From positions 76,479-114,492 of the forward strand of contig WQXJ01000001.1 in assembly GCA_009784895.1 (NCBI GenBank): 38,014 bases of DNA. Direction: 5' to 3'. The notes under the pieces are model-generated. The model did no database searches. It was not told where the DNA came from and saw nothing but the letters and a program-made list of their open reading frames with translations. The DNA is from Micrococcales bacterium. GTDB lineage: Bacteria > Actinomycetota > Actinomycetes > Actinomycetales > WQXJ01. Below, piece by piece: positions 21,453 to 27,373 of this stretch. A program made the position numbers and the translations under genes. Every line of letters starts with the position of its first letter. The first letter of the stretch is position 1.

Positions 21453-22589
21453 CTAGATTCGGTGGCTCGGTCCGCGCGCCCGCTGGCGCGAGCGTTCGCC
21501 CAGATGGCTTGGGACAACGGTCAAGACGAAGGCCAAAACCAAACCGACGCCAACCCCAATGCCGACCTGCCGGGCCGGAAGGACCGCTAGTGCCGCCGCC
21601 CCAAAGGCCAAGACCGCAGTCCAGCAGTACATTATCACCACAGCCCGGCGGTGGGTGTGGCCCAGTCGGAGCAGGCGATGGTGCAGGTGCATGCGGTCGG
21701 CGTGGAAGGGGGAGAGTCCGGCTCGCATTCGCCTCGAGATCGCCATCAGCATGTCTAGCAAGGGCAAGGCCAGTACGGCGAAGGGTAACAGGATGGGCAG
21801 GAAAGCACCCCAGGCCTGACCTTGCGTAATGTCTCCGGCCGCACCGGGGTCAACTTGGCCAGTGACCGCGATAGTAGCGGCGGCGAACATCAACCCAAGC
21901 AGCATTGAGCCGCTATCCCCCATGAAAATCGAGGCCGGGTGGAAGTTGTGGGGCAAGAAACCGAGGCAGGCGCCCACGGTAACCGCCAGCAGCAGGGTCG
22001 ACAACGAGGCGTAGTCGGCCATGCCCATCTCCCGGGAGAGGAAATAGGAGTAGACAAAAAAGGCGCCACAGCCGATGGCGGTTATCCCGGCCGCCAGCCC
22101 GTCTAGACCGTCAACAAAGTTGATGGCGTTGATGGCGGCTACCACCACCACGATCGATACCACCAGTGACAGCCTTGATGAGACAATTGTCAGCCCGGCA
22201 ATCGGGAAGGTCACCAGCTGGACCCCTTGCCAGGCCAAGATGCCTGCGGCTAAGGCTTGACCGGCCAGTTTGGTCCACCAACTGAGGTCAAACCAGTCAT
22301 CGGCCGCCCCGAGCAGACAAACCAGTGCGGCTGCGCCCAAAACACCCCAAACGGCGTGCGAGGATGAGAAAACCGGGGAAAGGAAACTCAGCTGCGAGGC
22401 CACGCCCAGGCCGGCCGCAATGCCAAGGACCATGGCCAGCCCACCCAGGCGTGGGGTGGGCCTGTCATGCACGTCGCGTGGGCGCACCGGTGTGATGGCC
22501 CCGGTCCAGGTGGCTAGGCGTCGCACCGGCCAGACCGCCAGGTAGGTCACGATGGCGGCAATGGCGCATAGCAGCAGGTGTACCCTCAC
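21453..22589 (-). CDS. wecA: Undecaprenyl-phosphate sugar-1-phosphate transferase (WecA/MraY family)
   Basis: 378 residues with about ten membrane helices. It moves a HexNAc-1-phosphate from a UDP-sugar to undecaprenyl (or decaprenyl) phosphate, starting surface glycan assembly at the inner membrane face. Family motifs: DRPTPRLGG at 42-50, the Asp pair at 97-98 (GAADDWFDL), NFVDGLDGL at 157-165, MGDSGS near 223-228, and HLHHRLLRLGH at 301-311, the WecA/TagO-type His motif. GTG 22589 overlaps the tsaC stop as GTGA. Its place before atpI is conserved in mycobacteria (rfe). Nearby polysaccharide genes suggest it primes their product too; the exact sugar is not readable. Confidence 0.92.
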   Translation of the reverse strand: MRVHLLLCAIAAIVTYLAVWPVRRLATWTGAITPVRPRDVHDRPTPRLGGLAMVLGIAAGLGVASQLSFLSPVFSSSHAVWGVLGAAALVCLLGAADDWFDLSWWTKLAGQALAAGILAWQGVQLVTFPIAGLTIVSSRLSLVVSIVVVVAAINAINFVDGLDGLAAGITAIGCGAFFVYSYFLSREMGMADYASLSTLLLAVTVGACLGFLPHNFHPASIFMGDSGSMLLGLMFAAATIAVTGQVDPGAAGDITQGQAWGAFLPILLPFAVLALPLLDMLMAISRRMRAGLSPFHADRMHLHHRLLRLGHTHRRAVVIMYCWTAVLAFGAAALAVLPARQVGIGVGVGLVLAFVLTVVPSHLGERSRQRARGPSHRI

Positions 22590-23221
22590 CTGGTCCCGCT
22601 CCCCCGCTTGGCCCTGGGCAAGAGTTGGTCGGCGCCAATTGGCCCTGGCCGCAGTAGCCCAGGCGCCAGGCCGGTTAGATCCAGCACAGACGAGGCCTGT
22701 CCGCCCCTGGCCGGTCCGGCGTCAACGTAGACCGCTACTTGCTGGCCCAATTTAGCCAGGGACTCGCTGGCGTCCAAGGCAGGTACGTCCCCGCTGCGAT
22801 TGGCCGAGCTGACGGCTAGCGGCCCGGCCAAGTCCAATAGCTCAAGGCAGGTTTCGTCTCTCGGTTGCCTGAGCGCGATGGTGCCACCACGTTGGCCCAG
22901 ATCCCAGGTCACTGCATCTTTGGCTGGGAGAACCAGGGTCAAGGCACCTGGCCAGTGGGCCGCTATTAGACCTCGGGCTTGATCGGACAGTTCTGCCAGT
23001 TTTTCTGCCTGCGCAAGATTGGCCACCAGGACCGGCACCGGCTGGCGCCGGTCACGGCCCTTGGCGGCAAACAAGGCCGCCACTGCCGGCGCCAAATCCG
23101 GCTTGGCCGCCACACCGTAGACAGTGTCAGTAGGGGTTACAACCAGTTGACCACGCTTCAGGGCCTGAACTGCCCGGGCCAATCCGGCCCTGTCAGGCCC
23201 TACAACAGCTGGATTCGTCAT
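22586..23221 (-). CDS. tsaC: L-threonylcarbamoyladenylate synthase (YrdC/Sua5 domain)
   Basis: 211 residues from ATG 23221 (an in-frame TTG lies two codons upstream). It makes threonylcarbamoyl-AMP from threonine, bicarbonate and ATP for the t6A modification of ANN-decoding tRNAs. Motifs: TPTDTVYGVAAKPD near 30-43, the KGRDRRQPVPVLV segment, HWPGALTLVLPA near 85-96, and RQPRD...PLAVSSANRSG. It has only the YrdC domain, without the extra Sua5 C-terminal domain. In the reference actinobacterial order it follows prmC directly; here the polysaccharide locus intervenes. Confidence 0.93.
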   Translation of the reverse strand: MTNPAVVGPDRAGLARAVQALKRGQLVVTPTDTVYGVAAKPDLAPAVAALFAAKGRDRRQPVPVLVANLAQAEKLAELSDQARGLIAAHWPGALTLVLPAKDAVTWDLGQRGGTIALRQPRDETCLELLDLAGPLAVSSANRSGDVPALDASESLAKLGQQVAVYVDAGPARGGQASSVLDLTGLAPGLLRPGPIGADQLLPRAKRGSGTR

Positions 23222-23255
23222 TGGCAAGCATCATAACGACCGGCGGCCGCGACCC

Positions 23256-23846
23256 CTAGAGCAGGGACCGCAGGGCGGCAGCACCGGCAATAACGGCCGG
23301 TCTGATCTGGCCAGCCGAGGCTTCAAACGCCTCCAAACCTAGGCCATAGGGGTCCATGACATCGTCATCGGCTGCGACGGCGGGAACAGGCGCCCGGCCG
23401 CGCTGCGCCACCACCAGCGTGACCGCCTGGCGCAAGCGGTCGACTGACTGAGCCCCACTTTCGCGCCCCGGCCAAGCGGCATCGGACTGGGCTGGCCCGG
23501 CCAGCCGGGCAAATTCACGCAGCGTCATGGCCCGGCGCATCAAGGCCGGATAGGCCTCAACCAGGCGGGCGCGGTGGTCCCGGGTGGCGGTCAAGATCAG
23601 GTCAGCCTCCGCCACCATTGGCTTGGTCACCTGCCTGGCCCGGTGGCCGGCGGCGGCCTTGGCCAGGCCCATGCCCTTTAGCACCCGAAGGGCGTCCGGC
23701 TCAATCGGGTAGCCCACCATCGCGGCCGTACCGGCAGAGGTAACTTCAACCTGTTCCTTGGGCAGCGCGGCAGCCAGAATGAACTGGGCCATGGGCGAGC
23801 GGCAGATGTTGCCCGTGCAGACAACCAGGACTCTAAAGGGTTCCAC
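23256..23846 (-). CDS. Low-molecular-weight protein tyrosine phosphatase (Wzb-like)
   Basis: 196 residues. The P-loop CTGNICRSP at residues 10-18 carries the catalytic Cys10 and Arg16, and the general-acid loop is DDDVMDPYG in the C-terminal part. It should dephosphorylate the tyrosine cluster of the adjacent BY-kinase, the usual Wzb/Wzc pairing that cycles capsule or exopolysaccharide assembly. GTG 23846 follows the kinase TAG with no spacer, so the two are translated together. About 40 residues longer than E. coli Wzb, with an insertion around 115-150 (SGAQSVDRLRQAVTL). Confidence 0.9.
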   Translation of the reverse strand: MEPFRVLVVCTGNICRSPMAQFILAAALPKEQVEVTSAGTAAMVGYPIEPDALRVLKGMGLAKAAAGHRARQVTKPMVAEADLILTATRDHRARLVEAYPALMRRAMTLREFARLAGPAQSDAAWPGRESGAQSVDRLRQAVTLVVAQRGRAPVPAVAADDDVMDPYGLGLEAFEASAGQIRPAVIAGAAALRSLL

Positions 23847-25562
23847 CTAGTGGGCCGACTTGTCAGGGCCAACCGGGCTCCAGGGCGGCGCACCGTTGGA
23901 GGCAGGCCACTCCACCGGCCAGGATGGCTCCTCGCCCTCGGCTGGCCGCGGCGATGTGCCTTTGGCACCTTGGCCTGGTGGATAGCCTTCACCGGTGACA
24001 ACGGCTGCCCACGAGGCTTGTTGCGGCTGGCGGCTGGGGCCAGCCTGCCGAGGCCGGGCCGGCCGCTTGATGCCTGCTCCTTGTTCAGGCGAGGCCGGGC
24101 TAGTGGCTCGAGCCTGGGTCCGGATCTGCTCCCGGGCCAGCTGGGCCTGCTTCTTGGCGGCTTGCCGCCGCTTGCGGCCACGCAGGCCTGGTCCGCCATG
24201 CCTATAGGCGTAGCCGTAGTTGTAATCGCCGTAGCCGTAGACATCCATGGTCTTAGTTGGCGCCATGGTCAAGATCAGGCCAAGCACCTGGGCGTCGACC
24301 GTCTCCAGGGCCGCCAACGCCGCCGAAATACTACGTTTGCGAGTGGTACCCATGGCCCCAACCAGGACCACTTCTGATTCGACCGTGCGTGACAGCACAA
24401 CCGCGTCGGTGGTTAGCAGCAGCGGCGGCGAATCAAGCAAGACAAAGTCGTATTGCCTGGCCAGCGCCTGGTGTAGTCCCTGCATGGCCGAGCTACCGAG
24501 CAAGCGGCTGGGATTGGGCGGCAACCGTCCCGCGGCCAAGACATAAAGCTGATCGTTGCCCCAACGTTGGGTGACTTCCTCAACTGTGGCCCGTCCAATC
24601 AGAACATCGGTCAAACCGGCACCACCTTCAAGGCCCATATACGTGGCGATTCGCGGCCGGTGCAGGTCACAGTCCACTAGCAGAACTTTGAAGCCCGAAT
24701 CGGCCAGCGAAATGGACAAATTGGCGGCCGTGACGGTCTTGCCTTCGGATGGGCCAGGCGAAGTCACAATGATGGTGTTGGCCGAGCCTTCTATGTTGGA
24801 AAACATCAGCGATGCGCGGATGCGCCGGTAGGCCTCTGCCCTTGGGTCAAGGGTGTCAGAGTCGAGCAAGAGCGAGCGCTTCTTCGGATCGGAATCGCGC
24901 GCGGTCAAACCGAGTATCGGCTTGTCTGAAAGCCGTTCGATGTCCTCCCGCGAGCGAATCCGGGTCTCGGTGGCGTTGCGCAACAGGGCCGCACCGGCCC
25001 CAAAAGCCAGCCCAACCAGGATGCTCAACGCCAGGTTCTGGCTGACCCGTGGCGCGGCCGCGCGACTCGGCGCCGCCGCCGGTGAAACCACTGTCACCCG
25101 AACCGGGCTGGAACCTTCGACTGGCCGGTCGAGCTCGTTTGCGACAACGTCAGTGAAGACCTGAGCCACCGAATTGGCCAGTTCTGCCGCCATTTGGGGA
25201 TTGGGATCCCTCAACGTGATGTTGATCAAGACACTGTTGGCAGGAGACTGGGCCGATATCTTGCTGGCCAGCTGGCCGGTACTTAGGTCGAGGCCCAGAT
25301 CCTCGATAACCTGATCCAACACCAGCTTGCTCTTGACCACATCGACATAGCTGGTAACGGCCTGCCTGGCGTAGTTGGTGCCCTGCAACATGTCAGTGGC
25401 GCTGTCGGTACCCCTAACCGAAACGTAGAGCTTGGCAGTAGCGTCGTATTGCTTGGTAGCCAGTAACGAGTAGGTCATACCGGTCGCGGTGCTGAGCACC
25501 AGAAGGATGAACACAATCAGCCAATGCCGACGGATGATGTCTAGGTAGTCCTTTATCTGCAC
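23847..25562 (-). CDS. Wzz/BY-kinase: polysaccharide co-polymerase and tyrosine autokinase
   Basis: 571 residues. Residues 1-200 are a Wzz-type chain-length domain with membrane helices at about 13-33 and 177-195. Residues 260-435 are the BY-kinase: Walker A SPGPSEGKT (268-276), Walker A' LLVDCDLHRPR (294-304), Walker B FVLLDSPP (373-380). A tyrosine cluster with six Tyr lies at 442-453. Unlike most, it is not at the end: a basic, Gln/Pro-rich tail of about 118 residues follows. Oligomerisation and phosphorylation control polymer length and export. GTG 25562 has AGGAG at 25571-25575, eight bases away, inside an inverted repeat. It is coupled to the phosphatase gene. Confidence 0.92.
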   Translation of the reverse strand: MQIKDYLDIIRRHWLIVFILLVLSTATGMTYSLLATKQYDATAKLYVSVRGTDSATDMLQGTNYARQAVTSYVDVVKSKLVLDQVIEDLGLDLSTGQLASKISAQSPANSVLINITLRDPNPQMAAELANSVAQVFTDVVANELDRPVEGSSPVRVTVVSPAAAPSRAAAPRVSQNLALSILVGLAFGAGAALLRNATETRIRSREDIERLSDKPILGLTARDSDPKKRSLLLDSDTLDPRAEAYRRIRASLMFSNIEGSANTIIVTSPGPSEGKTVTAANLSISLADSGFKVLLVDCDLHRPRIATYMGLEGGAGLTDVLIGRATVEEVTQRWGNDQLYVLAAGRLPPNPSRLLGSSAMQGLHQALARQYDFVLLDSPPLLLTTDAVVLSRTVESEVVLVGAMGTTRKRSISAALAALETVDAQVLGLILTMAPTKTMDVYGYGDYNYGYAYRHGGPGLRGRKRRQAAKKQAQLAREQIRTQARATSPASPEQGAGIKRPARPRQAGPSRQPQQASWAAVVTGEGYPPGQGAKGTSPRPAEGEEPSWPVEWPASNGAPPWSPVGPDKSAH

Positions 25563-25566
25563 CTTT

Positions 25567-25701
25567 GTCGCTCCTGGGGCGTTGGGCGGTACCCCGTGCC
25601 TCTGTCATATGCCTCAACCCGTCGGGTCACTTTGAGCCGACAGGCCACCATACTAGACGGACCGCTAATTGGCTTGTCCCAGGCGCGCTGCCAGGAGCGA
25701 C
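25567..25701 (-). promoter_or_regulatory. 11-bp inverted repeat that can sequester the BY-kinase Shine-Dalgarno
   Basis: Arms 25691-25701 (minus: GTCGCTCCTGG) and 25567-25577 (minus: CCAGGAGCGAC) are exact complements, 113 bases apart. The 5' arm starts two bases after the LCP stop codon; the 3' arm contains the AGGAG of the kinase start. Folding in the mRNA would hide that site, so translation could depend on RNA structure, ribosome stalling at the LCP end or a factor. Confidence 0.55.
25650..25655 (-). promoter_or_regulatory. possible -10 element before the BY-kinase gene
   Basis: TAGTAT on the minus strand lies about 90 bases before the kinase GTG in the LCP-kinase gap. No clear -35. A transcript from here would lack the 5' arm of the inverted repeat and escape sequestration. 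Confidence 0.28.
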
Positions 25702-25703
25702 GT

Positions 25704-27170
25704 CTAGTTGCCCGCCAGGACTTGATCGATCTTCGTCTTGGCCGCGTCTACGGTCTTCTGGTCAGGCACCATGACATAGAGCTTCATCGATCCCATTGAG
25801 TAAGTCGGTTCTGAAGCACCGGCGCCGTCTACGCTGATGCTTTCGACTTGCCATCCCCGCATTGAACTGAGTTGGGCGTCAACTAGTGCTCGGATTCGAG
25901 TAGTCGTCACATTGGTGCCGATTGTCCCCTCTAGGGCGGTCAGGATCTCGTTGTAGCGCAACAGGTTAGGTCGCTCGGTCAGCTTCCTAATAAGGGCATC
26001 AATGACGGCCTGTTGGTGCTTGCCACGCTGCCGGTCACCCTCAGCAAAGTTCTTCCTGGCCCGCGAAAAGGCAAGCGCTTGGGTGCCGTTCATTTCGTTC
26101 CAGCCTTTGACGAAGTGGTGCTGGCCCGTGGTGAAGTCGTAGTCCGAGTTGACCTGAATCGGGCCTACGGTGTCGACCAAGGTGACCATCGATGAGAAAT
26201 TGAGCCTGACGTAGTAGTCGATTTCCACCCCATAGACGTCCTGGAGGGTGTTGATCGACATGTCAATTCCATAGATACCTGCGTGAGTCAGCTTGTCTTT
26301 CGTCCCCTGGGTGCCATGCAGTTGGACGTAGTAGTCGCGCGGCGTATTAACCAGCAGAACCTTGTGAGTGGTTGGGTTGACCACCATAAGCATATTGACA
26401 TCGCTTCGGGACACTGTCGTCAGCGGACCAGCCACGTCGATACCGCTGATGTAGACAATGAAGCCTTCTTTGGGATCCCGGTCGCGTGCCTGCAAGTCGC
26501 CGAGCGGCTGGGTGATTTCGAACTGGTAAATGACCTTTAGGTCGCCAGCCCGCCCGGGATCGTTCTCTTCAAACACTTGCCAAATGTTCAAGTTAATGGC
26601 TGCCGCGTCAATGTTTCCGGCGACCACTGCCTGGGTCGCCTTGGTGATGTCCCCGGTGGCGGCCATAGTTATCTCTACCCGCGAAGTCAGGTGGGCTCTG
26701 ACCCGGTCAACGTTCGGGTCGTTAGGGATAAAGCCGACCACCTCGCCACCAAGTGATTCCACGCCATCCGGGTGATCGGGCGGAGCCACCACCACGTAGG
26801 TCACCGATGGAGGGACAGAGTTTTGAATCCGGCCCACGAATCCGGCCACGTCAAGGTTAACCAACGCCAGCACAACCGACACTGCTGCACCGATGGCTGC
26901 AAGGGTGACCAGCGCGCCAAAACGCACCTTGTGGCGCCTGGCCTTGGTCCGCCAAAGCCCAGCCGCGACCACACCCACCAGGCAGGCTCCGCAGGCGGCC
27001 GCAACCAGCAGTTTGTTTCTAGGGACAACCCCAACACCCCATGCTACGGCCACTGACACCAGGTAGATGGCCACGAAGATCACACTGAGAATGCGCCCGG
27101 CGCCTCGACCACCTCTTCGTCGAGAATGGCGTCGCCGAAAACTGCCACGAGCGGAAGATGGTTCGCTCAC
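25704..27170 (-). CDS. LytR-CpsA-Psr (LCP) family glycopolymer ligase
   Basis: 488 residues from GTG 27170; the frame is open to 27278 but the upstream part has no convincing start. The N-terminus is basic (RRRHSRRRGGRG), followed by three membrane helices. The large extracellular part has the LCP signatures: YISGIDVAG, SDVNMLMVVNP, LLVNTPRDYYVQ, DKLTHAG, and ALAFSRARKNFAEGDRQRGKHQQAV with the Arg pairs that bind the pyrophosphate lipid. LCP enzymes transfer glycopolymer from the lipid carrier to peptidoglycan or other acceptors. The three-helix start resembles CpsA/BrpA-type members. It is the first gene of the minus-strand run into the kinase, phosphatase, tsaC and wecA. Confidence 0.9.
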   Translation of the reverse strand: MSEPSSARGSFRRRHSRRRGGRGAGRILSVIFVAIYLVSVAVAWGVGVVPRNKLLVAAACGACLVGVVAAGLWRTKARRHKVRFGALVTLAAIGAAVSVVLALVNLDVAGFVGRIQNSVPPSVTYVVVAPPDHPDGVESLGGEVVGFIPNDPNVDRVRAHLTSRVEITMAATGDITKATQAVVAGNIDAAAINLNIWQVFEENDPGRAGDLKVIYQFEITQPLGDLQARDRDPKEGFIVYISGIDVAGPLTTVSRSDVNMLMVVNPTTHKVLLVNTPRDYYVQLHGTQGTKDKLTHAGIYGIDMSINTLQDVYGVEIDYYVRLNFSSMVTLVDTVGPIQVNSDYDFTTGQHHFVKGWNEMNGTQALAFSRARKNFAEGDRQRGKHQQAVIDALIRKLTERPNLLRYNEILTALEGTIGTNVTTTRIRALVDAQLSSMRGWQVESISVDGAGASEPTYSMGSMKLYVMVPDQKTVDAAKTKIDQVLAGN

Positions 27171-27373
27171 AAACGCGCCGCCGGGTCCTCTCGGCGATGA
27201 CTCTTCACGGGTAACAAGGCTACACGGCGCCCAGCCCCAACACCCGGCAACGCCGCGCCCCAGAGGACACACCACCACCCCGTCCAGCTCCCCCGTGATA
27301 CGGTGCCACAGCGCCCGGATACCACCTCGCGCCAGGTCAGACAGGCCGATCCCGGGCTAGCAAGAAGGGTTCA

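Follow-up and report, generated by a model that had tools for sequence, protein, structure and literature searches.

Predicted long-range pairing over the Shine-Dalgarno sequence of a Wzz-kinase gene and its possible coupling to the upstream LCP gene

The locus described here raises the question of how translation of a fused Wzz/tyrosine autokinase gene is set when its Shine-Dalgarno (SD) sequence is able to pair with a distant segment of the messenger that lies directly behind the stop codon of the preceding gene. The window analyzed in the present study, i.e., the whole stretch of 38,014 nucleotides from a Micrococcales bacterium (GenBank assembly GCA_009784895.1), carries on its minus strand, at 21453-27278, genes for an LCP-family protein, the Wzz-kinase fusion, a tyrosine phosphatase, a Sua5/YrdC-family protein, and a WecA-like sugar-phosphate transferase, in that order (Table 1). 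It is a polysaccharide cluster, within which the Sua5/YrdC-family gene sits between the phosphatase and WecA-like genes. Regarding the phosphatase, our crude gene caller favoured a start at 23792 over that of the longest open reading frame. The LCP and kinase genes are co-oriented neighbours, with the LCP stop codon TAG at 25706-25704 on the minus (coding) strand and a gap of 141 nt between the two genes.

An exact 11-bp inverted repeat had been reported across this gap in the original prediction, with one arm just past the LCP stop and the other carrying the AGGAG placed eight bases before the kinase GTG. The sequence bore this out at each point; the two arms are 11 nt each, 100% complementary, and separated by 113 nt, two bases lie between the TAG and arm 1, and the positions of AGGAG and GTG were confirmed. 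A second, imperfect anti-SD stretch in the gap is a weaker alternative partner, with a predicted duplex energy of -15.9 kcal/mol versus -21.6 kcal/mol for the main arms.

Table 1. Features of the LCP-kinase region, numbered from the first base of the window.
Feature	Position	Strand	Remark
LCP-family (LytR-CpsA-Psr) transferase gene	25704-27278	-	Start uncertain
Arm 1, mRNA sense GTCGCTCCTGG	25691-25701	-	Begins two bases past the LCP stop
Second, imperfect anti-SD stretch	25678-25687	-	9/10 complementary to 25569-25578; weaker alternative partner
Partner of 25701-25708 (8-bp helix across the LCP stop)	25652-25659	-	From repeat search and prefix folds
TAGTAT, candidate -10 word	25650-25655	-	Alone in the gap apart from one overlapping word; putative promoter
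Arm 2, mRNA sense CCAGGAGCGAC	25567-25577	-	Includes the kinase SD
Kinase Shine-Dalgarno sequence, AGGAG	25571-25575	-	Eight bases 5' of the GTG at 25562
Fused Wzz/tyrosine autokinase gene	23847-25562	-	GTG start
Low-molecular-weight tyrosine phosphatase gene	23256-23846	-	First base of the longest ORF directly 3' of the kinase stop

The fate of the SD was predicted by folding, the figures of which are equilibrium predictions that take in neither kinetics nor proteins. On read-through mRNAs of 181, 201, 241, 391, and 601 nt, the arms paired with a probability of at least 0.994, leaving the SD 0.04-0.07% unpaired and the kinase start codon 17-20% unpaired, and the cost of opening the SD was 7.2-11.5 kcal/mol, falling to 7.2-7.4 kcal/mol in the two longest contexts. 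When arm 1 was held open, to mimic a ribosome stationed at the LCP stop with an assumed footprint of 9-18 nt beyond it, the SD became 23-34% unpaired, and scrambling arm 1 gave 31% (the mean of 60 scrambles). Transcripts assumed to begin at 25645-25636 had the SD 58-70% unpaired and the start codon 3-18% unpaired. In growing prefixes of the transcript, arm 1 was partly free or, at some lengths, largely held by an 8-bp helix over the LCP stop; this helix was predicted at intermediate lengths and lost once arm 2 had been made, at which point arm 1 switched partner to arm 2. An RNA thermometer was ruled out, with the predicted helix remaining at a probability of at least 0.99 across 15 to 55°C.

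Our preferred reading, which we hold tentatively and at somewhat less than an even chance, is that the gap acts as a cis-acting translational gate, namely ribosome-gated coupling of the RNA-unfolding kind. On a messenger reading through from LCP, arm 1 would bind arm 2 and bury the kinase SD, and kinase translation, perhaps also that of the phosphatase behind it, would be poor. A ribosome arriving at the LCP stop would mask arm 1, break the helix, and expose the downstream SD, such that kinase translation may track LCP translation through RNA unfolding, not reinitiation. What we infer here is a messenger spanning both genes, formation of the helix in the cell ahead of ribosome binding, and a change in protein output. 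Because the upstream arm lies directly after the stop, only ribosomes at or near termination would be able to open the helix. In support of this reading, the 141-nt gap has room for two ribosomes, and the SD-blocking structure is present by folding prediction. Given the position of arm 1 and the release predicted for the assumed footprints, a terminating ribosome may reach the blocking element. Membership of the locus in RNA-unfolding translational coupling is accordingly graded as predicted, its structural features being present by prediction. Reinitiation by the LCP ribosome is disfavoured by the distance; in the part of the source consulted, reinitiation needs short distances and is near-completely lost at about 20 nt (PMC10666635), and it is therefore unlikely over 141 nt.

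The known system that this arrangement would resemble most closely is the Min Jou long-distance interaction between the coat and replicase genes of phage MS2, which, in the excerpt available, involves 7-nt arms at 1427-1433 and 1738-1744 (PMC11339067). In both cases a distant upstream arm hides a downstream ribosome-binding site, as a prediction here, and the breaking of the pairing and opening of the site by translation of the upstream gene, as described in that excerpt for MS2, is what we propose for the present locus. They differ in that the upstream arm of MS2 lies inside the coat gene and is 7 nt long, whereas the arm in the present study lies directly past the stop and is 11 nt long, and in that the MS2 effect was demonstrated experimentally and ours is a prediction (PMC11339067). 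A similar likeness holds for the operon examples of RNA-unfolding coupling that are given in the consulted part of another source, i.e., Escherichia coli rpmI-rplT at +52 nt, phage f1 VII-IX, and MS2 coat-lysis (PMC12548453), which share an inhibitory structure at the downstream ribosome-binding site, relief by upstream translation, and a spacing that fits two ribosomes; these cases are backed by experiment, whereas the present one is predicted. According to the same excerpt, shifting the upstream stop of phage f1 well ahead of the hairpin (+89 nt) abolished coupling (PMC12548453); in contrast to f1 and the other examples, the distance here is +141 nt, and the arm would be maskable only by ribosomes at or near the stop. 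A literature search combining BY-kinases and capsule operons with the structure and translation of mRNA listed a paper on capsule thermoregulation in Streptococcus pyogenes, and no paper on this kind of coupling was found within the topic searched.

If ribosome-gated coupling is correct, the level of a polysaccharide tyrosine kinase would follow the level of the LCP transferase synthesized immediately ahead of it, and the link would act through an arm outside the upstream gene, which would provide a simple natural case for how distant from the stop codon a terminating ribosome still gates the next gene. Even so, this coupling is a further example of an already-known kind and is ordinary in kind. 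Its present basis is the sequence of a single genome together with folding predictions.

Related genomes were compared at the levels of the gap, the gene order, and the kinase starts. In the genome lists used, the genome of the window is alone in its genus, and its family contains 17 further genomes. As a DNA query against 99 genomes, including this one, the gap gave only short partial matches elsewhere, the best outside this genome being 26 nt (E 8.6e-4) at a locus that matches neither protein, and the two loci returned by a kinase search of genome contigs, under the titles Bacillus and Bacteroidia, were distant and unusable for the gap. Within the family, identity is approximately 34-47% for full-length kinase relatives and approximately 41-52% for the closest LCP relatives, and the two are not adjacent. 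There was no LCP match at E 1e-4 in flanks of up to 1.5 kb around 36 kinase loci (30 distinct). For the remaining kinase matches, 19 upstream stretches were taken, each up to 3 kb long apart from one that the start of its contig limits to 200 nt, and 0 of 19 contained an LCP match; no kinase match was found in the ten stretches downstream of LCP relatives, where one contig ends inside LCP. LCP relatives were sought within the family only and kinase relatives within 49 genomes, and several relatives are fragmented drafts with some neighbours off the contig. Across the 140 loci compared, both genes occurred together only at the window's own locus, which is present in three copies, and the LCP-kinase order was seen in none of the relatives examined. 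In many genomes of the family the two genes lie apart, and the polysaccharide locus has therefore been rearranged across the family; on the family contigs L040, L042, and L044, among others, LCP and the kinase are on separate contigs or far from each other. In an independent check of kinase starts in the 30 distinct loci, with six duplicate loci and weak kinase matches that have no locus excluded, two gave no match, four had no N-terminus, ten had no SD, and 14 had an SD by our own rule. None of these 14 SD sequences was sequestered (exact helix of at most 7 bp and opening cost of at most 5.3 kcal/mol), and sequestration is thus not a habit of the kinase family, a result that does not decide for or against a lineage-specific device.

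The close rival to ribosome-gated coupling is chance complementarity in a GC-rich gap, which we regard as a serious contender at roughly one chance in three; the helix may form in this case, without selection or an effect on kinase output. How unusual the repeat is bears directly on this rival. When 6000 stretches of 141 nt were sampled at random from the window and 20 further pieces of its genome, 36 of them (0.6%) held a perfect repeat of at least 11 bp; the original prediction had put the chance at well under once in a hundred gaps, of which the order of magnitude stands and the "well under" was generous. The repeat is uncommon, not extreme. When the part upstream of the kinase was dinucleotide-shuffled, an SD-covering helix of at least 11 bp arose in 12 of 20000 trials; the same procedure gave 0 of 7920 across all 198 SD-bearing starts that our own crude gene caller found in a 434-kb sample of the genome (434,492 of 2,355,854 bases). 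For the window with its 18 SD starts, such a helix is roughly a 1% event, which speaks against chance; on the other hand, extrapolation to the approximately 1070 SD starts of the genome gives an expectation of up to about 0.4-0.6, and one arising somewhere by chance would not be unlikely. Also against chance, the kinase ranked top of the 198 starts by the longest exact upstream helix overlapping at least 4 nt of the SD (11 bp, followed by 9 and 8), 100 of these starts having no exact SD helix of at least 4 bp, although four exceeded the kinase when G-U pairs were allowed. With 150 nt upstream and 45 nt downstream, its SD opening cost of 9.8 kcal/mol was the third-highest of the 198 (mean 3.5), its SD accessibility was the second-lowest, and the cost was matched by 1 of 500 shuffles. 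Less favourably for the coupling, the cost drops in longer contexts, and 7.4 kcal/mol was reached by 16 of 500 shuffles in the 195-nt context. In favour of chance, the whole stretch folds with unexceptional stability, at a z of just -1.66 and with 15 of 200 shuffles equally or more stable, and the absence of sequestration in the 14 related genes points the same way. Two crude gene starts, L093:8909-10903 and L102:695-4000, had SD opening costs above that of the kinase (13.7 and 10.1 kcal/mol), and the latter has a 20-bp SD helix when G-U pairs are allowed.

The remaining alternatives place the cause elsewhere in the gap. An unlikely one is that a promoter between the arms yields the main kinase transcript, which would be devoid of arm 1 and have a free SD, with the helix only silencing read-through mRNA. 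The original prediction, which is partly supported, was that pairing would hide the SD and that kinase translation may be governed by ribosomes finishing LCP or by a promoter in the gap; folding agreed with a hidden SD on read-through mRNA and with its release in either case, including the free SD of the assumed short transcripts. A scan of 25400-25850 returned no sigma-70-type promoter, nor any intrinsic terminator or terminator-like site. The candidate word TAGTAT remains in favour of a promoter, but the coding strand of the gap has only two TANNNT words, which overlap, at 25655 and 25652, and we estimate that chance alone would supply one in 141 nt. Same-strand gaps have a median of 36 nt, which this one exceeds, yet 60 of 235 gaps are as long, and the low accessibility of the start codon on the assumed transcripts counts against this alternative. 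Quite unlikely in our estimation is a combination of both modes, in which mRNA from the LCP promoter would give the kinase only while LCP is being finished, because the arm behind the stop, over 100 nt away from the SD, has to be masked by a ribosome there, and a promoter between the arms would give it freely. The transient LCP-stop helix would partly hold arm 1 until arm 2 has been made, and the kinase-to-LCP ratio would be set by promoter choice. It is very improbable that a regulator binds the two arms as DNA sites and loops the gap between them; the inverted arms do flank a possible promoter, but the 11-mer occurs six times in the genome including both arms (two for the reversed control), which is no clear enrichment, with up to two mismatches the window has 21 copies versus 19.3 expected, and the four other exact copies lie in open frames of at least 200 codons. 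A shared regulator site was disfavoured on these counts and positions. We give as little credence to a 32-codon ORF in the gap (25651-25553) being translated and handing ribosomes to the kinase by reinitiation. Its 10-base overlap with the kinase start, with the stop just inside, provides the short distance that reinitiation requires according to the excerpt consulted (PMC10666635); however, by eye its ATG has no SD-like sequence upstream, and short ORFs are common in GC-rich DNA.

A search of the whole window against Rfam 15 at the gathering score gave no matches. Directly downstream of the -10-like word, a strong local hairpin at 25618-25645 on the minus strand (approximately CCTGTCGG/CCGACGGG) was present in most prefix folds; it has no T-tract and is possibly an operator or a stabiliser of a transcript end.
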